A stretch of 64,000 nucleotides of DNA, from contig OX637392.1 in NCBI GenBank assembly GCA_951799425.1, positions 58,877,093-58,941,092 on the forward strand, written 5' to 3'. Each line of letters begins with the position of its first letter. Position 1 is the first letter of the stretch. The notes under the pieces are model-generated. The model was not told where the DNA came from and searched no databases. It worked only from the letters and a program-made list of their open reading frames with translations. The position numbers and the translations under genes were made by a program. This document shows positions 1,462 to 55,528 of this stretch, piece after piece. This DNA is from Ilex aquifolium. Lineage: Eukaryota; Streptophyta; Magnoliopsida; Aquifoliales; Aquifoliaceae.

Positions 1462-2403
1462 CTTATATAATAAAGTAGTTTACAATTCAAATTTCAAAAA
1501 TAAACAAAATGATTTTTGTTTTTCGCGGTTCAAATCGCTTTAAATTTTACTTTAAAGTTAATCTAACAGCTAATATTAACACCCTAAATTTAATAGAAAA
1601 AATAGGCTTCTAAGGATATGTTTAGAGTGTCTTTTTAAAAATAGTACTAGAAATTATTTCTCATAAGTACTTTAAAAAAAAAAATAGTGTTTGAACTGTC
1701 CTACCACTATCTCTACCCCCACCACCACTACCTCTACCACCACCATCGACGCCGCCGTCGTCACCACCACCACCACTGCCGCCACTACCGCCGTCTCCAC
1801 CACCATAGTCGTCGCCGCCGCCACCACCGCCGCCGCCACTACCATCGTCATCACCATTACCGCCACCACAGCCATCGCCGCCGCCACCACCACCGTCGCC
1901 GCCATCGCCATCACCGCCACCACCACCACCACCACCATCGCCACAATCGCCACCACCACCACCGTCGCCGCCACCACCACATTGTCGTCGTCGTCACTGT
2001 TGCCGCCACCGTCGCCACCACCACCACCATCGCCACAATCGCCACCACCACCACCACCGCAGCCGTCGTCGCCGCCGCCACCACCACATTGTCGTCGTCG
2101 TCACTGTCGCCGCCACCGTCGCCACCACCGCCACCGCCACCAATGCCGCCGCCGCCACCACCACTGCCACCATCGATGCCATCGTCGCCGCCACCACGGT
2201 CATTGCCACCCACCACAACCATCACCGTCTCCTATCACCACCACCACCACCTCCACCTCCACCTTACACCCCCACTACAACTGATGCTTAAATTCATTAA
2301 TTGCTCTTCTATGTTTGTGATTTGATTTTGGATATAAATACAAATATGTTTATTATTTACCATTTTTTATTACTTTGTGCCTTCAGGCAGAGGCAATAAC
2401 TAG
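1462..2403 (+). mobile_element. Helitron-like non-autonomous element, copy A
   Basis: The right end has the Helitron signature: a short hairpin (2377-2390, stem TGCC/GGCA), a spacer of about 10 bp, and terminal CTAG (2400-2403) followed by host T. The left end matches the other copies (TATATAATAAAG and the following 150 bp), but the first two bases read CT instead of TC. The core (about 1700-2280) is an impure CCA/CCG trinucleotide array. No Rep/helicase is encoded, so it would need a helper. Other copies are at 5450-6306 and 49310-51281. Confidence 0.7.
1700..2280. repeat. CCA/CCG trinucleotide array inside Helitron copy A
   Basis: About 580 bp of impure CCA, CCG and TCG triplets. Because the period is 3, several frames stay open on both strands and give His/Arg-, Thr/Pro- or Val/Ala-only translations. 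These are simple-sequence artefacts and not genes. Confidence 0.9.
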
Positions 2404-2424
2404 TACTTATATAAGTTATATTAG

Positions 2425-3856: not shown

Positions 3857-4434
3857 TGATGATGCACAAATTAGTTTGTACATTACCTGTCAAGTAACAG
3901 TAATAAATGTAGTAATTAAAGTAGAGAGAGAAGACGAAAATTATAGTGGTTCAATCAATGTGACCTACGTCCACTTATAAATTGCTAGAGTTGCCGGGTA
4001 CTTTATTAGCTCAGAGATATAGGGAGAGCAGAGAGTACAAGTTTAGAGAAGGAGATAAGATATGTGCTCTGTTGAGTGTGATGCCCCCCAAGTGTTGGTG
4101 AGACTTACAATTTATAGTCGTCCTCCTAACAGATTTGGACGAGATATTAGTAGCTAGTTGGCTAGTCTGTTGGATCTGGCGTCCTCCTCTCAACGGGCGA
4201 GGCGGTTGAGGTACTCTCCATGAGACTCGGTCAAAGGATGACATGGGGTATTGACTATTTCCAAGGCGGCGTGGATGAGCTCTTAGATGACCCTGCATGC
4301 TCCTCTACTGATGTAGCTCCTGAAATTTGATAAGCTTGACCGGTGTAGACTTCTTTGGGTTTGGCTAACTGGACCTCTTGGAGTTGGACCGTTGGACTTG
4401 TAACATGAGTTGAACCCTTGGGTTTGACCCATCA
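3857..4434 (-). mobile_element. Solo LTR of the gag-only retroelement family
   Basis: Begins TGATGATGCACAAATT and ends GACCCATCA, as the two LTRs at 51282 and 54949 do. It shares with them the AGAGAAGAC, GACCTACGTCCACTT, GATGCCCCCCAAGTG and ACAATTTATAGTCGTC blocks in the same order. Its length is 578 bp against 580 bp. Flanks GTGTT (3852-3856) and GTGTC (4435-4439) fit a 5-bp target duplication with one later change. No internal region adjoins it, so it is best read as the product of LTR-LTR recombination. It is clearly more diverged than the 51-55 kb pair. The strand is set by that complete element. Confidence 0.82.
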
Positions 4435-4852: not shown

Positions 4853-5326
4853 TGTTCCTTTTGGTAGAAAGAATAAAAAATAGGAGGAATGAAAAATAAG
4901 AGAGATATACTTTTTATCCTTCAACGAAAGAAAATAAGAATAATACAATTTCCTTCATTTTGTGTTTGGTAAGATAGATGAAAAATAAAAATAAATAATT
5001 TTTTTTTTGCGTTTGATAAGATGGAAAAATATTTTCATATTTTTAAAAAAGTATAAATACATATTTTATTATTATATATATATGTATATATCAAAAAATA
5101 TATAGACAAATAAGATACATTTCAACACAAATAATTAGTTTTTTATCCACTTTCCTTTCGATTTTGGAGAGATTGATTTTGGTGAGTTGGAAAGAAAACG
5201 CATACATCCACATTTCTATCTTTCCTATTTTCTTTTCTTACTAAACTTGATATTTTATCTATCCCTTCAACTTTTTATTCTTCTAATTTTTCATCCTTTT
5301 ATTTTTTTATCGTACCGAACGGAGCA
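4853..5326. mobile_element. Tourist/PIF-Harbinger-like MITE
   Basis: 474 bp bounded by imperfect inverted repeats: TGTTCCTTTTGGTA at the left, and at the right the reverse complement reads TGCTCCGTTCGGTA (11 of 14 match). Similarity continues inward over about 40 bp of A-rich sequence. The flanks are TTA on both sides (4850-4852 and 5327-5329), the usual 3-bp target of PIF/Harbinger elements. No transposase is encoded. Confidence 0.75.
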
Positions 5327-5449
5327 TTAGTTTCGCAATGAACATACATCTAATTTGTGTAATTGTTTAGCTAAGCAATGACATGTCATTATCGTGTGGT
5401 AGCACACTGTGGTCTGTTGATTTAACTCATCTCTTATTATATATAATAA

Positions 5450-6306
5450 CTAATTATTGTATGTACCTGAGGCACATAATAATAAAAAAAAATGGTAAAC
5501 AATAAATATATTTGTATTCACATCTAAAATTAAATAACAAATATAGAGGAGAGAAAAATGAATTTAAGCATCGATTATAGTAGGAATGAGCGATGGTAGT
5601 GGTGGTGGGGTGGTGATGACTGTGGTGGTGGTAGTGGTAATGGTCGTGAGGGGTGGTGGTGAGGCGATAGCGGTAGTGGTGGTGGCGTGGCGCCAATAGT
5701 AATGACGACGGTGGTGATAGTATGGGGCAGTGGTGGTTGTTGTGGAAGAAGTGGTGGTGGGGTGACAACGACAGTGGTAAGACAGTGGGGGTGGTGGTGG
5801 GGGTGGGTTGGCAACAATGGTGATAGTAAGGGGTGGTATGGTAACGACAGCGATGACGGGGAGGTGGTGGTAGTGGTGAGGCGGTGACATTGGTGGTGGT
5901 GACGGTAGAGGTGGTAATGGTAGTGGTGATGATGGTGGGGAGTAGTTTGGTGGTGGGGTGGGGTGGGGTGGCGGTGATGGTGGTAATGGTAATGGTGGTG
6001 GGGAGTGGTGGTGGTAGTGGTGATGGTGGTGGGGCGATGGGGGTGATAGTGGTAGTGGTGGTGGTGGGGTGATTCCAAACATTACTTTTATTTTTAAAGT
6101 ATTTATGAGAAATTATAAGTATTAAAAATACTTTTAAAAAGTCACCACAAACACACCATTAGAGACCTATTTTCCCTATTTTAGATTGTTAATATTAGCC
6201 GTCAGATTAACTTTACAGTAAATTCAAAGAGATCTCAACTGCGAATAACAAAAGTCATTTTGTTTATCTTTTGAGATTTGAATTGTATTGTAGTTTATTA
6301 TATAGA
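5450..6306 (-). mobile_element. Helitron-like non-autonomous element, copy B
   Basis: On the minus strand the element starts TCTATATAATAAA (6306 downward) after a host A and ends near 5450 before a host T, which fits insertion between A and T. The 3' hairpin is decayed and the CTAG end reads TTAG, so this copy is old. The core (about 5575-6075) is a GGT-rich array on the plus strand, i.e. CCA in the element's own direction, as in copy A. Confidence 0.65.
5575..6075. repeat. GGT/CCA trinucleotide array inside Helitron copy B
   Basis: About 500 bp of impure GGT repeats. Open frames across it on both strands are low-complexity and were not annotated as genes. Confidence 0.9.
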
Positions 6307-6672
6307 TATAATATGGTACAGTAAGCAGCGACAAGCCTAATCTTTTCAATCTATGGAATAAAACGTAATTAAGCTGGTAAAACAACTCAGCATGTTGCAC
6401 TAGAAACACAACCATGATAATTAAATAATTCAGTTCATTGTTTACGAATATTCTCAGTACATATGGTCCATCCGTTTTTACAATGCTGGTTCATCATTTA
6501 GCTAAAATTCTAACACAAGTGCCTAGACATCTGTTAGATTATTGTTTTGTACACATTCGAAGGTTTTAAATGGTGCTCTAAGGCAGTATATGTGTAGCTA
6601 CTTTATGAATTCATTCATATTCATCATATATGACTCATCTGAACCCTCTCATGCACACAAGCAAAACCTTTG

Positions 6673-7130
6673 GGCTTGTTTGGATGAATTTTAGGGAGGG
6701 ATTTTGATTGATTTCTCCAAATTTTTTCAAATTCAAATCTTTTTTTGTAAAGATGAGAGTCAACATTCAATTCAGTTCATACTCATGTCTGGTATGCAAC
6801 ACATACACATATAAGACCAAGAGATATATCATAATTATTAATAACTATTTTTCCTGTAAATGACTATTTTATCATTGATCAATTCAATTCATATTCATGT
6901 TAAGAGGTACAATTGTTTTTTAGATTCTTAACTCCTTACCCATCTTCTCAAACCCACCTCCGCCTAAGTTTGACGAAATCTATGATCATGAGTTTAACCT
7001 TCGAGTCAATTACAGACCGGGTTTGAAAACCAAAGATTGAATTTTTTATACAAGAGATTGTGAGAAATTTCGGACTATTTTTTTTAAATTCATCTTATTA
7101 AATTATCTCTTGCCTTCTGACCAAACAGCC
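6673..7130. mobile_element. Possible PIF-like inverted-repeat element
   Basis: GGGCTTGTTTGG at the left and CCAAACAGCCCC at the right form a short inverted repeat (10 of 12). No matching target duplication is visible and the inner parts do not pair well, so this is only a candidate. Confidence 0.35.
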
Positions 7131-7214
7131 CCGTGAGGGATGAGATGGACATATGGAGACCAAATCCTGTGTTTACGGTTTTAGCATTGGCAAAGTGATT
7201 TTCTGTACTTGGGA

Positions 7215-12889: not shown

Positions 12890-15800
12890 CATGTTTAGAA
12901 TTTATCATTCATCAACACAAAGAAAACTGCTGGCAGCCACCCACTCTTTGCTATCACCCAAATCAAACGCCTACCAATATACAAGACAAGATCTAGACAA
13001 ACCATACAATATATATTCACCACTTAAAAGTTCAAAGCTTACAAAACCCATGATAGACTTTGTTCAAACCCTCTATACTATACAGGAGATCACAGGTGAT
13101 AACTTGAATGAGTAACTGTGAGCAGTGATTGGATAAAATGGGTAGTTAGTTAAAAATGCTCTAAACTGGACCTTCCTTCTCAATTAAACCAACTTGTACA
13201 ATTATGTTATGATATTACATGCTTAAGCTTTAACAAAAATCCCGTGCAATAGTGACCTATATAAACAAGAAAGAACTCACAGTTTACATCTGAGTAACAA
13301 CAGTTCCAACATGCACTCACCCCATCCAAAAACAAACCTGTCTTCACCAAAATAGCATGAACTATTAATTTCATCCAGGAAAGTTTTCACTGAGAATTCA
13401 AATCTCTTGCGAGTTCCACTTGTAATCAAATCCACCAGATCACTGATTCTTCCCCAGCTTCTACAGTCCCATGTAACAGAGTCATTCAGAACATCATACT
13501 TAGTTAATTGAACAGGATTTAGAGTTCAATTAGTAGTGAAATATTACCTTCACGACAATAATAAGGGCTACATCATTCCAGTTGTGGAAGCAATAGTCAC
13601 TCACACTTCCCTATCGCACAGTGATGAAAACAGGCTAAACATCTCTCTCTCAAACACACGCGAGACAGAGAGAGTGAGATCTTGATCGTTCTCCAAGACA
13701 AATCAAGACTTGATGGAAATACAATATATAATCGTTCTGACGGGAAATTTGAAACAAAATATAGGGAATCATGACTCATACATAAGAAAGAATCAAACAG
13801 AAAATTAAAATAAAGACAGACCAAGGAGGGAAGGGGAATTACGAGGAAAGAGAAGGTGCTCAGAATTTGTAAAGAATGGATTGGAGAGTGTCCTCACAAA
13901 AATTGTCAGATTAACGAGATTATTACAACCTCATCATTGCACCTTCACTTCCGATAGATGGATGAAAGAATATATACATACCATACATACAAAATTGGGC
14001 TGACAAGTTTAGTAAATTCGGAAAAATTTCCCTAAAACAGAACCCAAGATAAATACCAACCTTCCTGCCACGAATCATACAACCACCATAGCATTTAAGA
14101 ATGGAAATGTAGTGACCCTATGGCGTGGCTGTTGATATACATTAAAATCCTACTCATCTCATAAGAAATAAAAATAAAAGACCTCAGAATGTGAAGGAAA
14201 TCAGAGCACCGACTAAAAGATTAATAATGTGAACCTCTATAGCATTGATTAAAGTATATGATGTAAATATAGCATTGATTAAAGTATATGATCCAAACCC
14301 AATTCATAGAATCCAGTTCATAAGGAATCTAGACTCTAATTGCGTCCCCAAGCAAAGATACAAACATTTGTAATCTCCTGTTGCGACTCATACACCAGTA
14401 ACACCACTACAACAAAGAAAACAAATTTAAAGAAAGACAGTTATTGTTAAGTTGTAGGATAATGTATAGACCCTATAAAGTGTTATGGTTATCCACTACA
14501 ATTGATTATTCATAGCAACCTAAAAATAAGAGCATGTACATTTGCATTAATAAGCAACTTAAAATTTTGGAGTATTGAGGTTAGATGAATGGGTGCATTT
14601 CTTTTCCATGAAGTCCAATAAAATTCAGCTTCTCTTGTTCTAAGAGATTGTTGCCTATTTATATACTCCATCATACTTGATTCATTTGTTTGGGTGAATA
14701 TCATGTTCAATGTTATTTAATTCAACAAAAACACATATTAAATCTCAGCTACAGACCTAATTTCAGACCAAATACCATACCCAATTTCATACCAAATTTC
14801 AGACACCTTCACACTCAATTTGGAACATAATTTCAGACCAAACTTGCATACTGTAGGAGCAGCATAGAGAAAGATGCAAGTCAACATGTGTAATGGCATC
14901 ATATTGAATGATGAATGCAAAAAACAATCTTCCCTCCATTCCTCTCTATCTTTGTTGATTGAAATCCTAGACCATAAATCAAAACAAGACTATTAAACAA
15001 AAAAAAAATTAAAAAGAGAACAATAAAAAACTGAAACTAAGCATATTGAAACAGATGCATAAAGTCAATATTTTCTAGAAAGAGTGGATTCTTTTTCCTT
15101 GACTTAGGACCATACTCCCCAGGCAACCCAATAGCTCCCAAGTAGGGATGCATGCTCAACCATAACAGAAGCTTCGATGTGGACTCACTTCATCTTGAAC
15201 AGATATGAACTGAAATTGACCTTTAATAAAAGCAAGAATCAGAAGCACCATGAAGTACGACGATAAACAGGAGAAGTTCTACAGAGAAACCCAAGCCATC
15301 AGGATTCACCATTCCCACAACACGGGAAACATATAACCAACAACCTTGAAACTGGCATGAAATCACTGGTTAACCATGACATAATATCACTCGCTAATGA
15401 CTTAAACACATATAAAAGGTAACATTCCCATATCATAAACACATACAAAAAACATGACACAATGTATTTTACACAGAGTAGCCAAAAATCAAGACTTTAT
15501 GGAAATCAAACATATATTAGCTTCAGAGGGAAAATCTGAAACAAAATATAGGGAGAATAATTACTCAAACATAACACAAAATCAAATAAAGTAAATTAAA
15601 ATCCAAGACAAATCAAGGAGAGAAGGGAAATTAGAAAGAAAGAGAAGGCGCTCAGAATCGTAGAGAATGGATTGGAGAGTGTGTCCTCACAAAAAATTGT
15701 CAGATTAACGAGATTATTACAACCTCATCATCGCGCCTTCACTTCCGATAGATGGATGAAAGAACATATACATACCATACATATAAACACACACAAAACT

Positions 15801-16401: not shown

Positions 16402-18776
16402 TTATGTTTCCATGACATCCTTGTGGCTAACTTCAGTAGAATCACCATTCTGTCTCTTGAACCATAAGAAGCTTGGTCTGTAGCCTTTTTCCAACATCTT
16501 CTCAACCTCCTCAAACTGTAATCCTTTGGTTTCAGGTACAAAGAAAAATATGGCTACCAGTCCAATGAAGGAAAACCCAGCAAACAAGAGGAATGTGCCA
16601 GCAGAACCAAGAGCCTTAGTCAGTGTTAAGAACGTCTCGCTCACTACTAGATTAGAAATCCAGTTAGCAACTGCCGCGATTCCTCCACCAAGGCCTCTGT
16701 ACCTCAAGGGGTATATCTCCGAGTTCACAATCCAAGGTGCCGTTCCCATTCCAGGTGAGTATGATAAAATGTAGAGTCCTAGAAATAATACAGCCACAAT
16801 ACCAAACTTGCTTGGACAACCATTTGTGTACCAGGTACGACGTTCTGCACGGCACAATCCCCTAATTGCATCTTCTGCAGCTAGGCATGCTCCAGGCAGA
16901 TACTGATTCACATAGAAAATTAATTAGAAGATGCAAAAAGAAAAAAAAATGACATTGCAAGCTAAGTTGAGAAAACTATTAAAACAAAACCAAAGAGATG
17001 AGCGCAGTATACTTACTTTGCTGTCCTCATTAGCACAAAATGCACAAGAAGAAGATGCTTTCAAGCATGCCATACAATTCCAAGATGATGCATCGGACAC
17101 TTTCAAGTAACTTGGACATGTAGAGTTGGCTCCAAAGTGGGTGGATTCAAAACTACTGACAAGAGGGGAGTGGGAAGAAGCTTCATGAAACATGGCGGAT
17201 AGCACCACTAGGCAAAAAATGATTCCAAACATAGAGATCATCATCAACCTCCTCCTCCCAAATCTGTCCACAAAAGCCATACTAAAAATGGAGCCGACAG
17301 CATTCAGACCGGATGTAATCAGAGAGAGTGCTAAAGCTGTCTTGTTTGAAGCAAACCCAGCCAGCTGAACTATGGTAGGACTGTAATACATGACAGTATT
17401 GATACCAACAAACTGCTGAGCAACTTGAACAGTGATACCGGCATAGAGTCCCCTTCGGACAACTACATTGCCCCAAGCACCTTTGAGTTTTGAAATAAAA
17501 CCATCACCAATAGAAATTTCCTCGGCCTTTTCAGCTTCTACAGACAACTGTAATGCTTTCATTTCTTCTTCAACTTCATCGGCAGGATAGATCTTCTCTA
17601 GGATTGCCCTGGCTTCTTCTACTTTATCCTGATCACATATCAACATGCACATTCATCAAACTTGCTTGTAAAAACTATTTCTATTATTGCCAAAGTCAAA
17701 CAAGGTAACAAATGCCATAACTTCTCACACTTGATGGACATAATTGAGGGTATTGGTTAAATAAAATCGAGTAAAGGGTGGTTATTACCTGCCGATATAA
17801 CCATCTAGGAGACTCTGGAAGTGACAACATCAATATGAATTGAACGAGAGCTGGAACTCCTGCCACCCCAAGCATCCAACGCCAGGTTCCAGGTGTCTGA
17901 AGCATACATATGAAATTATTCCACCATCAATATTCCATTCTAATTATTAACGAAATTAGTGGTTCAAAAAATTAGGACAACTGAAAAAAACTCAAATTTT
18001 CGTACCTTAGTGAAGGCTAAGTTGATAAGGTAGGCCAGAAATTGCCCTCCTGTAATTAGCAAACCATTTGTGCTAACTAATGCCCCTCTAATTCTGGCCG
18101 GAGAAGCTTCTGATATATAAAGAGGTGCAGTCATGGACGCCATTCCAACTCCCAAACCCACAAGTACTCTTCCAAAAATTATCAACCCAGGAGAAGGAGC
18201 CACGGCCATGACAATTGCCCCGAGAAGGAACAAAGCATCAGCTACTAGAATTGATTTTCTCCTTCCAAACCTATCATTCATCCATCCACCCAATGCCGCA
18301 CCAATAATAGCTCCTGCTACGGCCATGCTCACAATGGTTTCCTGCACAATTTATAAACACGTATGGTTATTCACCTGATAAAAAAATTAATGAAAAATTT
18401 TACATGTACTAATGGATAGCAATTGAGAGTAGCATATGTACCTGCAGCCATGTTTGCCTCTCAACAGATTTGAAGTCATCCCGGATGTAGAGAAGGGCAC
18501 CAGAAATAACACCTATATCACAATAAAAAAGTTTACAAATTACAAACCCATTGAGCAACATGTAGTTGTATGCTTAAGGTTCCTCCATTTGCAATGTCCG
18601 TGCATTAATAATAATAGAAGAGGGACAAAAATTAGTTAGTTACCTGTGTCATAACCAAAGAGAAGCCCTCCAATGCCAGCTGACAGGGCAAGGCGCATTA
18701 TGTAAGGTGTTTTCCAAGTAGTTCGATAGCATTCTGTGAATTCTGTTTTGTCCGGTTTAGCAATACCCCCTTCCAT
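16402..18776 (-). CDS. INT4: Myo-inositol/H+ symporter, INT4 type
   Basis: Six coding exons on the minus strand (18776-18644, 18512-18442, 18341-18006, 17896-17789, 17628-17017, 16902-16402) join in frame to 586 residues; Arabidopsis INT4 is about 582. It is a 12-helix major-facilitator sugar porter. Visible marks are [14 protein letters not shown] in TM1, DRFGRRKS and DRFGRRRL after TM2 and TM8, PESPRWL at the end of the first half, and PETKG after TM12. Between TM9 and TM10 is a long Cys-rich loop ([36 protein letters not shown]), the PSI-like extracellular domain found in the INT2/INT4 branch. The family brings myo-inositol into the cell with protons at the plasma membrane. A TATA-like motif at 19214-19223 implies a leader of roughly 400 nt. 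Confidence 0.95.
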
Positions 18777-19930: not shown

Positions 19931-20135
19931 AAAATCATGTATTCGAAACTTGCTGAAAGGTTAAGAAAAAGGGTATTTATATTTTGTTAACTTGTGAGTA
20001 TCACATCACATCTAATGTTCATAAATTATCAGTTGCATAACAAAATGGACAAAGGAGAATGGAGTACAAAGAAAGCTTCTCTTACCAGAGATCCGATTTT
20101 AGAGCTTTCTGTTCCTCTCAGTCTCTGTGCATGCA

Positions 20136-21661
20136 GGGGGCGTTTGGATAGTGGGTTAAAGGTGGTTATCCACTAGTTGGATAGGATAAAATATGAGTGG
20201 GACCCATATATCCTTTGTTTGGGAAGGGATTTTTGAGGTTGGCTACAAATCCCGGGTCACCTGCTTGACCCGGTGCTACAGTACAAATTTAACCCCATAC
20301 ACCGGTTTCTCAAAACCCAGCCCCCCCCTGGGTTACAAACCTAGACAAAAGGATACAGCCCTCAAAGACACCTTTGCCCTTATCTCTTTCTCCACAGCCC
20401 CCTCTTCTCTCGTTGTTCTGTCCAGCCCCCAGCCCCCCTCTTCTCTCGTTGTTCTGAGCTAAGCTAGTCCAAGGGTTCGCACAGAGGCGAAGACGACATC
20501 GCTGGACAGGATCGAAGAACACAATCGAATTCTTGGGTTTGCAGTGGTAGAAGCAATACTCGGCTAACTAGAGCGGCAGCGCCACATACACGCAACGCCG
20601 TCGCAATGGGTCGCATGCACAGTCGAGGGTTTGTTCTTCGTCTCTCCCTCTGCATGATACATGTCTTATATGCCTTTGAATTTCTGTGTTTTTGAAATTT
20701 TTTTGATTGCAGTAAGGGTATATCAGCTTCAGCTCTGCCATACAAGAGGACTCCACCAAGTTGGCTGAAGATCTCTTCTCAGGACGTATGAAATACTTAT
20801 TCATATCTTGTCAATCTTTCTTCAATCTATGATTATCTGGAATGATGTGTTGAATTGAAGTAAGCTTTGTCCTTATATCTCAATGTGGAGTTGCTTCTCT
20901 GATGCTACCACTTTGAAATGTGAATTTGGTGTACACATTTAGAGTTGATTGTGGTGAATGATTTTCTTCTAATGTTCATGTATGAATCACAAGTTCCTCT
21001 CATGATTTCTTTTCATTTAAAATGTTTACTGGATATATTAAACGGGAATGATTTTTCTCCCAATGAAGGAAAAGGTGTGTTTCAGCTACGTTTTTTTTTT
21101 TTTCATAATTCCTTTCTTAAGTGAACGAAATATTAAGTCTTTTGAGGTGGGAGAGTTCTTGTCTAATTCTAACTATTTCAATTTTTATCGGCAACGATTG
21201 AAACCACAAATCCATCAGTTGTGTTTGGTTTGATATTTTCATCATGAATGGAAGGCTAAGCTTGATTAATTATTGATCTTCATCATATGAAGTCTTAGTA
21301 TGTTGATTTTGTTTGACTATAAGTCATAAGGTTATTAACTTTTCTAAAAAAAAAATTATTTTATTTTTATATATTTTTATGTATATGTGAAAATTGTAAA
21401 ATTTTATTATGATAATTCATCAATCCAAACATGGGATAGGATTGGAATGGATAGAATCATGGGTATAATGGTAAACTACTACAAATTATTTGTGTAACTT
21501 ATGGGGTCCATTGAATTACACCTTTGTTTGCCAAACAAAGGTTAGGATTGGATATATTTCAAGGTTAGGGTTTTAAAGTGGATGAGTAGGTTTAGATTGG
21601 ATGGGTTAGGATATAAAAAAAGATAACCTATCCTATCCAGTCCAGCTATCCAAACACACCC
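20136..21661. mobile_element. PIF-like TIR element carrying an RPS13 gene fragment
   Basis: 1526 bp. The left end is GGGGGCGTTTGGATAG and the right end, reverse-complemented, is GGGTGTGTTTGGATAG (14 of 16). The flanking triplet is GCA on both sides (20133-20135 and 21662-21664), which fits the 3-bp target duplication of PIF/Harbinger-type or other 3-bp-duplicating elements. Subterminal TGGATAGGATA motifs are present at both ends. No transposase is visible. The interior holds the 5' part of a cytosolic ribosomal protein S13 gene, so this is a Pack-type element. A 21-bp palindrome lies at 21521-21541. Confidence 0.8.
20606..20785 (+). pseudogene. Captured 5' fragment of 40S ribosomal protein S13 (uS15)
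   Basis: Exon 1 (20606-20628) reads MGRMHSRG. After an 84-bp intron with GT/AG, exon 2 (20713-20785) continues [14 protein letters not shown] and ends [10 protein letters not shown]. Together these are the first 32 residues of plant RPS13, which is normally about 151 residues long. A donor-like GTATGA follows exon 2, but no further exon is present. The CT-rich stretch from about 20380 resembles the donor gene's 5' leader and contains a duplicated block of about 25 bp. Since the intron is kept, capture was at the DNA level and not from mRNA. No full protein can be made. Confidence 0.88.
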
Positions 21662-21664
21662 GCA

Positions 21665-34500: not shown

Positions 34501-35241
34501 AGGGGTGTCCACCCTACCTTACGGGTAGGAAATATAGTCTTCCGTCTTCCTACCCGATACTTTGCGGAAGAATTTTTTCTTACCCTACCCTACCCGATCA
34601 GGTGTGGTATTCCTACCCGACTTCCTACCCGATTAATCGAGTAGGAAGTCGGGTAAACACTTTTGTAACTATTAATTTTTTGATCATTTTAACAATTCAA
34701 TTAAATAACATGTATCAATTTAACAACACAATAAATCAATAACACTAAAACATAAAACAACTACAACAACAATTACAAAAAAAAAAAACACAAGAAAGCA
34801 TGAACATCAATCTATCATAATTGTTACACAAATACAAATACAAAAACAATTATTTTAAGTTTAAACTATATGAAACACATTAAAATCATAACTACTCCAA
34901 TAAATCACCAGTTCACCACAAATCATGTAACTTGTACAAAAAAACAAGTTCATGTTTTAGCAACTCAAACATCCACAGCAATAACAATGTTATAATATAA
35001 ATTATATCACACAAATACTCTTATAATTACTAAAAAAATATAAAAAAGTTAAATATATTTTTTTGCGGGTAGGGTAGGGTAGGAATGCGGAAATTGATAG
35101 GCATTCCGCATTCCTACCCGATTTAATCGGAAGATCAAAAACTCTTCCGCATTCCTACCCAATTTTTGCAACTAGCCGTTCAGTAAAATCGGGTAGGGTA
35201 GGAAATTGCAGTCAATCAGAAATTTGAACACCTCTCCCTAT
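34501..35241. mobile_element. hAT-type non-autonomous element
   Basis: 741 bp flanked by a perfect 8-bp duplication, AAATGAGT (34493-34500 and 35242-35249), which is diagnostic of hAT-like insertion. The ends are AGGGGTGTCC and, inverted, ATAGGGAGAGGTGTTC, imperfect but of hAT style. Both subterminal zones are crowded with CCTACCC/GGGTAGG motifs (over a dozen), as expected for transposase binding sites. A 42-bp palindrome (34614-34655, 20 of 21 pairs) sits on the left. The middle is A-rich and non-coding. Confidence 0.87.
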
Positions 35242-47262: not shown

Positions 47263-49309
47263 TTACGGAGCAATAATTACCCTCCACTTCATTCACTAAC
47301 TACATAAACTGCCCCTGAGGAAAGATATTCCCCAGGATAGCTCTCTTTTTCCTGACCAAGTGACCAACAGCAACATGTGTGTGTGGTCCGTAGTAGTAGC
47401 ATTCCAATCCCCAAGTGAGTTTGCCCTTTTCCTATGGGAGACTGACCATAAACCCACCCCACAGCTACAAGAGTCTCACTTCACAACAAAAGACAAGGTT
47501 GAGAACAGAATTATTAGAACTAAAAATCAAGTAAATATGTTCTTCATGTGATGTTAAGATGTAATAACGTCCCACAATATTGTGTTCTTGACGAATTAAG
47601 CTTAGCTATAAATTTTTGAGCTTTGAACAAATAAGAGTTTACAAGAATTTTCTTTAATTGATATCTAATCATAACCCAAAATATAATATATGTGTAGGAA
47701 AATGGTGAATTTTTAAGTCAGCAAAATGACTATATTTTAGTATAATTGGTATTGAAAAGTTGGATTTAAAGGCAAAACTTAATTGCATGGTTAAAAATTA
47801 GTATTTATTTGTCACAGAAAGTTCTAGAGTTAAGCAAATGAGTCGCAGCCAATGGCGGCAATCCTTATCCTAACTGGTAGTTGGTAGAAAAACATGGGCG
47901 GATCCGTACACGGTTTGTGGAGGGTCAAAGGGCACTTGTTGTGAATAACAGAAACACTGAGGACATTTGGTTGAAGGCCGGTTCGCGGAAATGACTTTAT
48001 ATTTGCGCATATGCTTTAATTTTTATTTATTAATAAATTACTTATTTCTTGGAAAAACGTGTTGCTGACGTGGAAACTAAGGAGCTTTCTTTGCCACTAA
48101 CGTTTCATCTTCCTATAGAGTTTCCTTAGTCATTTTCTCAGTTTGTCATTAGTATTTAACTGTTGACCGTCTTACTCGTGGAAGTCACAAACTGACAAAA
48201 CTAAGCTTATTTCAACAGCTGCCCATTTATCACTCCAAAACTCGTATTGACTATTTTGACTCTTGAAACCGTGTAATAGACATTACCATCTCAGAGATCA
48301 TAAAAAATAAAAAAAAAATTATCGATATCAAAATTTAGATTATTTTTGCGTCAAATTAATTGTTGTGTATAACCTATCAAACTTAATTTCCTCCTTAAAT
48401 TTTGAATTATGTAATAAAAATGTATTGGTTTGTCCTATTAAATTCTTACCCCTGTGGGCTTTTTGTCTTTCCTTTCGGAGAACTCCCAAGCCAAAGTTAT
48501 TATGAGATTGCCATTTCTCCACTTTTCTCTTCTTTTGTTCCCCCTCCCCACTTGAGGATTTCTGCTTATCTTTTCTTTCCACAGCCCACAACAAACAGTG
48601 CAAAGGAGTTTCAGAAAAAGGAAAAACAAAGCTTTAAAGGAGGATTCTGAGAACCATCATCATTAGTTTTTAATCTCCCAAAGCTTGCAACCTATGATTA
48701 AGATTAGAGAATTGAGTTTTAGGATGAAGCTGAGAAAAAGAAGAAGAAAAGGAGAATCTTGAGGCTTCCTTTTGTACTCAAAAGGAATGGCATTATATGG
48801 CCCATTTAATTAAAATAGAAAAAGTTTTCAGTCAAAGATCGGATTACATCAAGAGGAATAACTTCAAAATTTCGAAATGGGTGTAGATATCAATATCATT
48901 ATCATCATCTTCGATCATTGCTTTTATCAGTGATAATAGTTTTTAATTTGTAAAAGACTAGCATCCGCAGTAGTATGAGAAACATAAAGTGACCATTGAT
49001 TGAGATGAATGCTTCTCTGAGATCATAATTCCTCCATCTCTAATGAATACAAATTAGTACATAAATTTACATAAACTATGAGCTAAATTTGACATAAAAG
49101 AACAAAACATTTCTTCCCTTAGGTTCATATATATTTATATAATAAATCAGCTAACTATTTGAAATGTTATCCCCAACACATTTTCTCCCCTAAATCCATC
49201 CAATCCTCTCTCACCTCATCCATCACTCCACTGCCAGAGAAGCTACTCTTTTTTTTTTTTTTGAATTGAACCATGTCTTTAGGCACGAGTAAACTCTAAT
49301 ATATATATA
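47263..49309. other. Intergenic, upstream of the GRAS gene
   Basis: No gene recognised. Just before the Helitron array, around 49275-49295, the motif GTCTTTAGGCACGAGTAA resembles the Helitron 3' hairpin region and may be a truncated further copy. Confidence 0.45.
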
Positions 49310-49889
49310 CTAGTTATTGTCTGTGCCTGAAGGCACGGAGTAATAAAAAATGGTAAACAATAAATATATTTGTATTCATATCCAAAATCAAATCACAAAC
49401 ATAGAGGAGAGATAAATGAATTAAAGCATCGGTGGTGGTGGTGGTTGTGGTGGCGGTGGCGGTGGCGGCGGTGGTGGCGACGTCAGCGGTGGTGGTGGCG
49501 GCGACGACGGCGGTGGCAGTGGTGGTGGTGGTGATGGCGGCGACGACGGCGACGGCGCTGGTGGTGGTGGTGATGGTGGCGGTGAGGGCGGCGATGACGA
49601 CGGTGGTGGTGGCGGCGGCGGCGGCACTGGTGGTAGAGGTAGTGGTAGGACGGTTTCAAATACTATTATTTTTTTAAAGTACTTATGAGAAATAATTTCT
49701 ATAAGTACTTTTAAAAAATCACTCCAAAATACACCATTAGGATCCTATTTTTCCTATTAAATTTAGGGTGTTAATATTAGCCGTTAAATTAACTTTAAAG
49801 TAAAATTTAAAGCGATCTCAACCACGAATAGTAAAAGTCATTTTGTTTATCTTTTGAGATTTGAATTGTAAGTTACTTTATTATATAGA
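49310..49889 (-). mobile_element. Helitron-like element, tandem copy C
   Basis: On the minus strand it begins TCTATATAATAAAG (49889 downward) and ends CTAG at 49310 before host T. A perfect hairpin GTGCC-TGAA-GGCAC (49323-49336 on the plus strand) lies 10 bp inside. The GGT/GGC core is about 49425-49650. It abuts copy D with no spacer. Confidence 0.82.
49425..49650. repeat. GGT/GGC trinucleotide core of copy C
   Basis: Impure GGT/GGC/GAC triplets. Open frames through it are compositional artefacts. Confidence 0.9.
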
Positions 49890-50459
49890 CTAGTTATTGC
49901 CTGTGCCTGAAGGCACGGAGTAATAAAAAATGGTAAACAATAAACATATTTGTATTCATATCCAAAATCAAATCACAAACATAGAGGAGAGATAAATGAA
50001 TTTAAGCATTGGTTGTAGTGAGGGTGAGAGGTGGTGGTGGTAGGAGACGGTGATGGTTGTGGTGGGTGGCAATGACCGTGGTGGTGGTGGTGGTGGCGAC
50101 GACGGCGGTGGTGGGGGCGGTGGCGATGGCAGTGGTGGCGGCGACGACGGTGGTAGTGGTGGTGGCGGCAGTGACGGTGGTGGTGGGGGTGGAGGTAATG
50201 GTGGTAGAGGTAGTGGTAGAACGATTTCAAATACTATTATTTTTTTTAAAGTACTTATGATAAATAATTTCTAGAAGTATTTTTAAAAAATCAATCCAAA
50301 CATACCCTTAGGGGGCCTATTTTTCCTATTAAATTTAGGGTGTTAATATTAACCGTTAGATTAACTTTAAAGTAAAATTTAAAGCGATTTCAACCGCGAA
50401 TAGCAAAAGTCATTTTATTTATTTTTTGAGATTTGAATTGTAAGCTATTTTATTATATA
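49890..50459 (-). mobile_element. Helitron-like element, tandem copy D
   Basis: CTAG terminus at 49890-49893 and a perfect hairpin at 49903-49916. The 5' end (50459) reads TATATAATAAAA but lacks the first TC. The core is a GGT-rich array at about 50010-50225. Confidence 0.8.
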
Positions 50460-51060
50460 CTAGTTATTGTCTGTGCCTAAAGGGACAGAGTTATAAAAAA
50501 TAGTAAATAATAAACATATTTGTATTCATATCCAAAATCAAATCACAAACATAGAGGGGAGATAAATGAATTTAAGTATCGGTTGTAGTGAGAGTGAGAT
50601 GTGGTGGTGGTAGGAGACGGTGATGGTTATGGTGGGTGGCAATGACCGTGGTGGTGGTGGTGGTGGCGACGGCGATGGCATCGGTGGCGACTGTGGCGAC
50701 AGTGGTGGTGGTGGTAGTGACGGCGATGGTGGTGGTGGCGACGATAATGGTGGTGGTGGCGGCGGCGATGACAATGGCGGTGGTGGTGGTGGTGGCGGCG
50801 ACGATGGTGGTTGTGGCGGCAGCGGCGGTGGTGGAGGTGGTGGTGTTGGTGGAGGTGGTGGTGTTGGTGGCGGTGGTGGTGGTGGCGGCGACGGTGGCTA
50901 CGACGGTAATGGTGGCGGCGGCGGCGACGGCGGCGGCGACGGCGGCGGCGACGGCGGCGGCGACGGGGACGGCGACGGCGACGGCGGTGGTGGTGGTGGT
51001 GGCAGTGACGGTGGTGGTGACGACGGTGGTAAAGGTGGTGGTGATAGTGGTGGGACGGTT
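50010..51060. repeat. GGT/GGC arrays of copies D and E
   Basis: Two arrays, about 50010-50225 and 50600-51060. Stretches of perfect GGCGGCGAC and GGTGGT show recent local expansion. Poly-Gly/Asp and poly-His/Arg frames across them are not genes. Confidence 0.9.
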
Positions 51061-51281
51061 TCAAACACTATTTTTTTTTTTAAAGTACTTATGAGAAATA
51101 ATTTTTAGAAGTACTTTTAAAAAGTCTCTCCAAACACACCCTTAAGGGCCTATTTTTTCTATTAAATTTATGGTGTTAATATTAGCCGTTAAAGTAAAAT
51201 TTAAAGCGATCTCAACCGCGAAAAGCAAAAGTCATTTTGTTTATCTTTTGAGATTTGAATTGTAAACTACTTTATTATATA
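50460..51281 (-). mobile_element. Helitron-like element, tandem copy E
   Basis: CTAG terminus at 50460-50463. The hairpin region (50473-50486) has decayed to GTGCC-TAAA-GGGAC. It has the longest core, about 50600-51060, of GGT and GGCGAC units. The 5' end, TATATAATAAAG, meets the LTR element, which inserted at or beside the Helitron terminus. Confidence 0.78.
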
Positions 51282-51861
51282 TGATGATGCACAAATTGGT
51301 TTGCACACCACAATCAAGTAAATAGTATAAAATGCAGTAAAATAAGTAGAGAAAGAGAAGACAAGGTTTATAGTGATTCGGTCAACATGACCTACGTCCA
51401 CTTTCAATGGCTAAGTTCGCCGGTATTTTATTAACTCCGGTGTGTTGGGAGAGTAGAGAATTACAAGAGGGAAGATAGATGAGCTTGATCTTTGTGAGAT
51501 GCCCCCCAAGTGATGGGGAAGCTTACAATTTATAGTCGTCTATGTAGTAATTGAATGGGTAGTTTGACGGTCATAACGGATTGTAGCAACTTAATAGCTT
51601 TTAACAGCTTGGCGACCCCTCATCTCATTGACGACCTCTCATCTCCTCAACCGGCAGGGGAGTGCTCTTTAAAGGTCTTGGCCAAGTGATGAGGGAATGT
51701 TGACTTCTCCCAAGCGGCCCGGATGCTCCCTTAGTGGAGTAGCTCCCTAATGAGGTTGACCGGTCTGGACCACTTTGGGCCTGCTTGGTCTTCTAGAGCT
51801 TGGGCTCTTAAATAGTTTTGGGCTTTCCACCCGGATTGGATTATTTGGGCCTGGCCCATCA
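51282..51861 (-). repeat. 3' LTR of the gag-only element
   Basis: 580 bp, TGATGATGCACAAA to GGCCCATCA as written on the plus strand. It pairs with 54949-55528. A shifted GATGCCCCCCAAGTG block is shared with the solo LTR at 3857. Confidence 0.95.
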
Positions 51862-53491: not shown

Positions 53492-53815
53492 TTGGCGACC
53501 CTCGAGAGAGCCGCTAAGCTAGAGATAGGCTGCCTGTTTGAGAACAGTGCAGAGATAGGCCAAGCTTTTTTGGCGACCCGCGAGAGAGCCGCTAAGCTGG
53601 AGATAGGCTGCTTGTTTGAGAACAGTGCAGAGATAGGCCAAGCTTTTTTGGCGACCCGCGAGAGAGCCGCTAAGCTGGAGATAGGCTGTCTGTTTGAGAA
53701 CAGTACAGAGATAGGCCAAGCTTTCTTGGCGACCCACGAGAGAGCCGCTAAGCTGGAGATATGTTGCCTGTTTGAGAACAGTGTAGAGACAGGTCAAGTT
53801 TTTGGCGATCCACGA
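53492..53815. repeat. 78-bp tandem repeats, about four copies
   Basis: AGATAGGCTG recurs at 53523, 53601 and 53679, with a changed copy at 53757, an exact 78-bp period. More diverged versions extend left to about 53260. Since 78 is a multiple of 3, the array is open on both strands and gives 26-residue repeat translations. The right end overlaps the end of gag. Confidence 0.9.
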
Positions 53816-54883
53816 GATGATTCACCTCGCCTGGACCTGTTGATTTTCTCAGCATTCATATATTTTTGAGCTTTTGCTAATAGTTCTGGCATGCTCTTTG
53901 GTGGTCGCTTCATTACTGAAAAGAAAAAGCTTGATGACCGGAGGCCTCCCAGGAAGGCGGTCATGCTGACTTTTTCATTGGGCTCCTCGACCTTAAGGAC
54001 CTCCTCGTTAAAACGAGTGAGGTAACTCCTTAAGCTCTCATCTCGGTCCTGCTTTATGCTGAGCAGGTGGGTGGCAGACTTCTGGTGGCGGCGTCCTCCA
54101 ATAAAGTGTGATACGAAGGACCTGCTCAGCTCAGCAAATGAGCCAATTGAGGCTGGGAAGAGCTTGGAGAACCATTGTCTAGCAGATCCCTTCAAGGTGG
54201 TTGGGAACGCTCTACACATGATTTCGTCGGGGACATTGTGCAGTTGCATCAAGGTCTTAAAAGTTTTGAGGTGGTCCAGTGGATCCTTCGTACCGTCAAA
54301 GGTCTTGACGGATGGCATCTTGAATTTCTGAGGAAGTGGGTAATTCGCCACGTCAGGTTTGAAAGGTGTGTCGGTTCGACTTATGAGGTAGTCTACTGTT
54401 TCGGGTCCCTGTGCCTTCATGGCGTTGAAGACGTCACCCAGCTGATTCTGCACCTCCTTAATTTTTTCGTCCCAATGATTGGGAGGAAGTCCTCTGGAAT
54501 TACCACGAAAAAGGCTCTCATGCTCCATGCTTTGGTTTTGACCCTCATCTTCTTGGAGATGAGGGTCTCCGCTATGGAGAGCGGGAGTAGGAGCAGCAGC
54601 AGGGCCTGGAGGAGGAGGTCCTTCCTGGTGGGCCCCCCTGTGTGGGGCGCCTAAGGGGGCGCCCAGAGGGGGAGCTCCTTGATGGCCAAGGAGTGGAGCT
54701 CCTCTAGCTTGCGGTCCGAGCTGCGCCCCTCCTTGCTGCCCGATCATCAACTGCAAAATCTGCTGGTTCTGGGCTATGAGTTACTGCATGGTGTCCAGCA
54801 TCTGTTGTGCATTTGGGACCGGATTGACAGGTGGAGGAGGAGCAACCTCCTTTTCTCGTACAGGATTGTCTTCAGGGGGATTC
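53794..54883 (-). pseudogene. Retrotransposon gag with an in-frame stop
   Basis: The frame begins MNPPEDNPVREKE at 54883 and meets TAA at 54783-54781, 35 codons in. It then stays open in the same frame to 53794 (an internal ATG at 54756 gives 320 residues). The N-part is Gln/Gly/Pro-rich. The middle is a Retrotrans_gag domain (MCRAFPTTLKGSARQWF, then SFVSHFIGGRR, LRSYLTRFNEEVL and TAFLGGLR). The end is Ser/Arg-rich with no zinc knuckle. The protein would form the RNA-packaging particle. Whether the stop kills it or the internal ATG is used cannot be told here. Confidence 0.85.
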
Positions 54884-54948: not shown

Positions 54949-55528
54949 TGATAATGTACAAATTGGTTTGCACACCACAATCAAGTAAATAGTATAAAAT
55001 GCAGTAAAATAAGTAGAGAAAGAGAAGACAAGGTTTATAGTGGTTCGGTCAACATGACCTACGTCCACTTTCAATGGCTAAGTTCGCCGGTATTTTATTA
55101 ACTCCGGTGTGTTGGGAGAGTAGAGAATTACAAGAGGGAAGATAGATGAGCTTGATCTTTGTGAGATGCCCCCCAAGTGATGGGGAAGCTTACAATTTAT
55201 AGTCGTCTGTGTAGTAATTGAATGGGTAGTTTGACGGTCATAACGGATTGTAGCAACTTAATAGCTTTTAACAGCTTGGCGACCCCTCCTCTCCTTGGCG
55301 ACCTCTCATCTCCTCAACCGGCAGGGGAGTGCTCTTTAAAGGTCTTGGCCAAGTGATGAGGGAATGTTGACTTCTCCCAAGTGGCCCGGATGCTCCCTTA
55401 GTGGAGTAGCTCCCTAATGAGGTTGACCGGTCTGGACCACTTTGGGCCTGCTTGGTCTTCTAGAGCTTGGACTCTTAAATAGTTTTGGGCTTTCCACCCG
55501 GATTGGATTATTTGGGCCTGGCCCATCA
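54949..55528 (-). repeat. 5' LTR of the gag-only element
   Basis: 580 bp, TGATAATGTACAAA to GGCCCATCA on the plus strand. Nine substitutions separate it from the other LTR. Confidence 0.95.

Follow-up and report, generated by a model that had tools for sequence, protein, structure and literature searches.

A probable PIF/Harbinger-like element enclosing the first exons of RPS13 in Ilex aquifolium

The window analyzed here is a 64,000-nucleotide stretch of the Ilex aquifolium genome (assembly GCA_951799425.1, contig OX637392.1, positions 58,877,093 to 58,941,092 of the forward strand), and all coordinates below refer to it. Pfam searches of nine ORFs in the window returned, among other families, Sugar_tr, Ras, RRM_1, GRAS, Arm together with the plant U-box ARM model, and Retrotrans_gag. 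The Sugar_tr gene, identified by Pfam and presumably inositol-transporter-like, lies on the minus strand with its coding exons at 16405-18776 and its ATG at 18776. Two snoU30 genes (RF01283), also on the minus strand, are located at 13858-13941 and 15650-15735, each inside its own copy of an approximately 300-bp duplication (86% identity).

Related repeat units at 49302-51281, 1464-2413 and 5430-6307 share a GGT/GGC-rich core and are approximately 76-85% alike in blastn pieces; based on their end motifs, we take them to be Helitron-like elements, in part in tandem. Three units are arranged head to tail at 49302-51281, where, on the minus strand, one unit terminates with a small hairpin (GTGCC-TTCA-GGCAC), closely followed by CTAGT. 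Immediately adjacent, an LTR-like pair of 580 bp (51282-51861 and 54949-55528) is 98.4% identical, with 3.1 kb between the two copies and a minus-strand ORF containing the Retrotrans_gag domain (53797-54780) in this interval. The segment 51282-55528 is probably a young non-autonomous LTR element, and a diverged piece of it (77%) was detected at 3857-4122.

The 5' part of a gene for ribosomal protein S13 (RPS13, uS15) is found on the plus strand, starting with an ATG at 20606. The coding part of exon 1 (20606-20628) is followed by intron 1 (20629-20712; 84 nt, GT..AG) and by exon 2 (20713-20785; 73 nt), which extends to codon 32 (D32) and is followed by GTATGA, the start of intron 2 (20786 to about 21400). 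The first-pass annotation had reported exon 1, intron 1 and exon 2 in correct order with 32 residues in frame, and this description is confirmed. The spliced exons, with all 32 codons intact, had uS15/RPS13 as their best match in a phmmer search of the PDB (E 7.2e-16), in which 43 distinct sequences passed the 0.001 threshold, and Pfam identified Ribosomal_S13_N (E 2.3e-14) over profile positions 1-33 of 60. A tblastn search with a full-length plant RPS13 query recovered residues 1-33 only, and the 9 further rows, none with an E value better than 0.062, were regarded as chance matches. Neither the further RPS13 exons (exon 3 onward) nor an RPS13 donor gene was found by tblastn in the 64-kb window, and a gene continuing within the window was rejected on this basis. 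A retrocopy was likewise rejected, since the retained introns indicate capture at the DNA level and not at the RNA level. If intron 2 is left unspliced, the reading frame meets a stop right after codon 33, and thus the fragment most likely yields no functional protein. A scan of viral contigs from a non-plant collection returned 0 matches for RPS13 exon 1 and 0 for the termini described below.

These exons are enclosed by a proposed non-autonomous element of 1526 bp (20136-21661, plus strand). Its 5' terminal inverted repeat, GGGGGCGTTTGGATAG (20136-20151), and its 3' terminal inverted repeat, GGGTGTGTTTGGATAG (21646-21661, given on the minus strand), are complementary at 14 of 16 positions (88%). 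The triplet GCA, a putative target site duplication, occurs on the left at 20133-20135 and on the right at 21662-21664; when direct repeats of 2 to 10 bp were compared across the flanks, a full match was obtained at 3 bp only. The inverted ends and identical flanking triplets on which the TIR element was initially proposed are therefore confirmed. Further inside, a subterminal inverted motif with a CCTTTGTTTGG core has its left arm at 20209-20225 (plus strand) and its right arm at 21528-21544 (minus strand), the two being 17 nt long and 88% complementary. This motif is the best local match between the two 300-base terminal regions of the element; the likeness of these regions is not above chance, as 54 of 1000 shuffles scored at least as high as observed. 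In addition, a CT-rich stretch upstream of the captured ATG (20398-20456) contains two exact copies of a 23-nt direct repeat, at 20398-20420 and 20434-20456.

To what extent the ends exceed chance depends on how many features are considered together. With overlapping registers included, the 4 kb around the element contained 14 inverted pairs matching at 14 or more of 16 positions, and 30 shuffles averaged 5.9 and reached at most 20; a bare 14/16 inverted pair is common by chance and is weak evidence. When an identical 3-bp flank was also demanded, one pair was left in the 4 kb; the shuffles averaged 0.1 and never exceeded 2. After the element ends had been seen, a PIF-type motif was shaped (GGG N2-3 GTTTGG), and pairs facing each other at 300-3000 bp were counted. 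With this post hoc motif, 4 facing pairs were identified at 2 loci (shuffle mean 0.017), and with the same post hoc motif one pair had equal 3-bp flanks, compared with 0 in 300 shuffles. The second of these loci, at 6672-7132, spans 461 bp, lacks equal 3-bp flanks and is perhaps an old MITE.

A published consensus gave a better comparison. According to the available text of the report on Medicago elements (PMC2213677), the ends of MtPH-A5 start with GGGKGYGTTTG. Three such sites are present in the 64 kb against 0.16 expected, a figure uncorrected for the choice of MtPH-A5 among ten consensus ends, and two of them coincide exactly with the ends of the element, facing each other. Sites of GNNNNNGTTTGGAT number 5 against 0.81 expected, and two of them are again the element ends. 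The third exact GGGKGYGTTTG site (51131-51141, minus strand) lies within a presumed Helitron-like repeat unit, adjoins TTA, and is perhaps a MITE end caught in that repeat.

The borders of the captured DNA were approached through base composition. Introns of plants are expected to have more T than A, and T was in excess of A in all 8 of the 75-nt bins between 20811 and 21410, in one of them by 0.01 only. The excess changed to -0.16 at 21411-21485 and was +0.13 at 21486-21560; because the sign is positive again in this last bin, the right border can only be guessed at approximately 21335 to 21420. On the left, capture may have begun close to the direct repeat at 20398-20456 or downstream of it. 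The proposal that the element carries the RPS13 promoter was not supported by a scan of 20136-20605 for motifs common in plant ribosomal protein genes: the patterns used matched neither a TATA box nor a telo-box nor a CCAAT, and the only site-II-like match was on the minus strand at 20362.

A minus-strand GT donor occurs at 20085-20084, 50 bases outside the element's left end, so placed that 20086-20135 (minus strand) might be the end of a 5'-leader exon of the Sugar_tr gene abutted by the element. On the other side, TATAAA (21717-21712, minus strand) is found 51-56 bases past the right end and might be the TATA box of the transporter gene, a weak assignment given how common this string is. 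Judging from these motif positions, the flanks, if joined at one GCA, could make up a single short leader exon for the transporter gene. The element may thus interrupt the 5' leader of this sugar/inositol-transporter-like gene on the minus strand, with RPS13 antisense to that gene. It is a long shot that, from this place between the TATA box at 21717-21712 and the donor at 20085, transporter transcripts carry antisense RPS13 5' exons and would link the transporter to the ribosomal protein mRNA via antisense pairing or small RNAs.

Based on these features, the best reading is that 20136-21661 is, with good though not high probability, a non-autonomous PIF/Harbinger-like element with captured genomic RPS13 DNA. 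Terminal inverted repeats of PIF/Harbinger elements are 14-25 bp long and start with G(N)5GTT, and both 16-bp ends fit this description. The enclosure of RPS13 exons 1-2 and the intron between the ends corresponds to the Pack-TYPE definition, in which a TIR element encloses part of a host gene. The TTA/TAA (TWA) target site of the superfamily was not found; the 3-bp repeat is GCA, which also differs from the ANT, CWG and TNA of related groups, and for this reason we keep the name to PIF/Harbinger-like and claim no membership. Open stretches of at least 40 aa were examined in six frames of the element, and the longest, 104 aa, and all others appeared unlike a transposase by eye alone. No second copy of the element was detected in the 64-kb window by blastn at E 0.01; the other matches at this threshold were 4, of 26 to 60 bp, one of them internal to the element and three in other places, near 5000-5096 and 35026-35064. 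The earlier assignment to the PIF/Harbinger group agrees with the type of the ends and the 3-bp length of the duplication; as a superfamily assignment it is weak, since the triplet itself does not fit, no transposase was recognized by eye in the element, and the window contained no sibling copy. Transposition, superfamily, capture borders and mechanism are what we infer from this arrangement.

The principal rival is a degraded or partial DNA-level (segmental) duplicate of RPS13, whose borders happen to fall near separate MITE ends or chance motifs and which never transposed as a unit. The frequency of 14/16 inverted pairs by chance, the non-canonical GCA, the end regions devoid of significant extended similarity and the lack of a sibling copy within the window are all compatible with such a duplicate. 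Against it, both ends fit a PIF consensus from the literature exactly and face each other, and equal triplets stand flush with both of them; the single leader exon that the joined flanks could make for one gene also argues against it, and we regard it as unlikely. Capture of the RPS13 fragment by a TIR element from outside PIF/Harbinger, namely a hAT, MULE or CACTA, is more doubtful still. The triplet, being non-TWA, agrees with this possibility, and GTTTGG-type ends occur in other plant families too. The flanks, however, match at only 2 of 8 and 2 of 9 positions, so that neither the 8-bp nor the 9-bp target site duplication of a hAT or MULE is present, and the element ends begin with GGG, whereas CACTA ends begin with CACTA or CACTG. 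Capture by a Helitron is very improbable: Helitron-like units do exist in the window (1464-2413, 5430-6307 and 49302-51281), but the element ends are inverted and flanked by equal triplets, its borders have no 5' TC or 3' CTRR end, and it has no blastn match to those units at E 0.01.

Read as a PIF/Harbinger-like element, the locus has published counterparts. The first-pass annotation considered capture by this group to be much less often described, a view that is outdated, since the available text of two reports (PMC2528002; PMC8903248) describes such capture. Gisby and Catoni 2022 (PMC8903248), in the text available, describe Pack-PIF elements with host gene fragments in rice and maize. The present element resembles these in being a PIF-type TIR element with a 3-bp duplication that carries a host gene fragment, and differs in having GCA rather than TTA/TAA. 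As given in the same available text, TTA/TAA accounts for 52.4% of the rice and 81.2% of the maize PIF elements, and departures from this target are therefore reported, some of which may be false calls. The available text of the 2008 grapevine study (PMC2528002) reports transduplication by a PIF family, Pifvine-3, with exons and introns included; these PIF-group elements likewise bear genomic sequence with both exons and introns, in contrast to the present element in that, as described there, the family is defined by its transposase gene, and none was recognized here.

In the case of MtPH-A5 from Medicago truncatula, the first 11 bases of the TIR consensus, as printed in the available text (PMC2213677), fit both present ends exactly, while positions 12-16 agree with them at one position only. 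The autonomous MtPH elements were, according to that text, sought with TTA/TAA duplications. Pack-MULEs and Pack-CACTA elements are similar in that gene fragments were captured by TIR elements, and different in that the present element has neither a 9-bp duplication nor CACTA ends. A literature search for Pack-PIF, Pack-Harbinger and Pack-Tourist found the paper of Gisby and Catoni (PMC8903248) alone. Among the matches listed, no report of RPS13 as a captured gene was found in the literature on MITEs, Harbinger elements and gene fragments, a search mostly outside subscription journals, and nothing relevant to the end sequences was found by title and abstract.

In the proposed origin of the locus, an ancestral element, or a pair of neighboring elements, would have taken in chromosomal DNA from the 5' part of RPS13. 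This DNA would have run through exon 1, intron 1 and exon 2 into intron 2, perhaps with some of the leader in front. A transposase acting in trans would then have recognized the two GGGKGYGTTTGGATAG ends and mobilized the composite, which would have inserted at the site now occupied by 20136-21661, with duplication of the 3-bp GCA. The mechanism suggested in the literature for such elements, as far as the available text of two papers goes (PMC8903248; PMC13317346), is the joint mobilization of two neighboring insertions with the intervening DNA.

As it stands, the proposed capture of RPS13 leaves the knowledge of gene capture unchanged. If the preferred reading is true, Ilex aquifolium would provide one more clean PIF/Harbinger-type capture, with a housekeeping donor and intron boundaries kept, which would be useful for mapping capture borders. 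Furthermore, if the insertion into the transporter leader is right, the locus would be a natural test of the action of a captured fragment on its neighboring gene.
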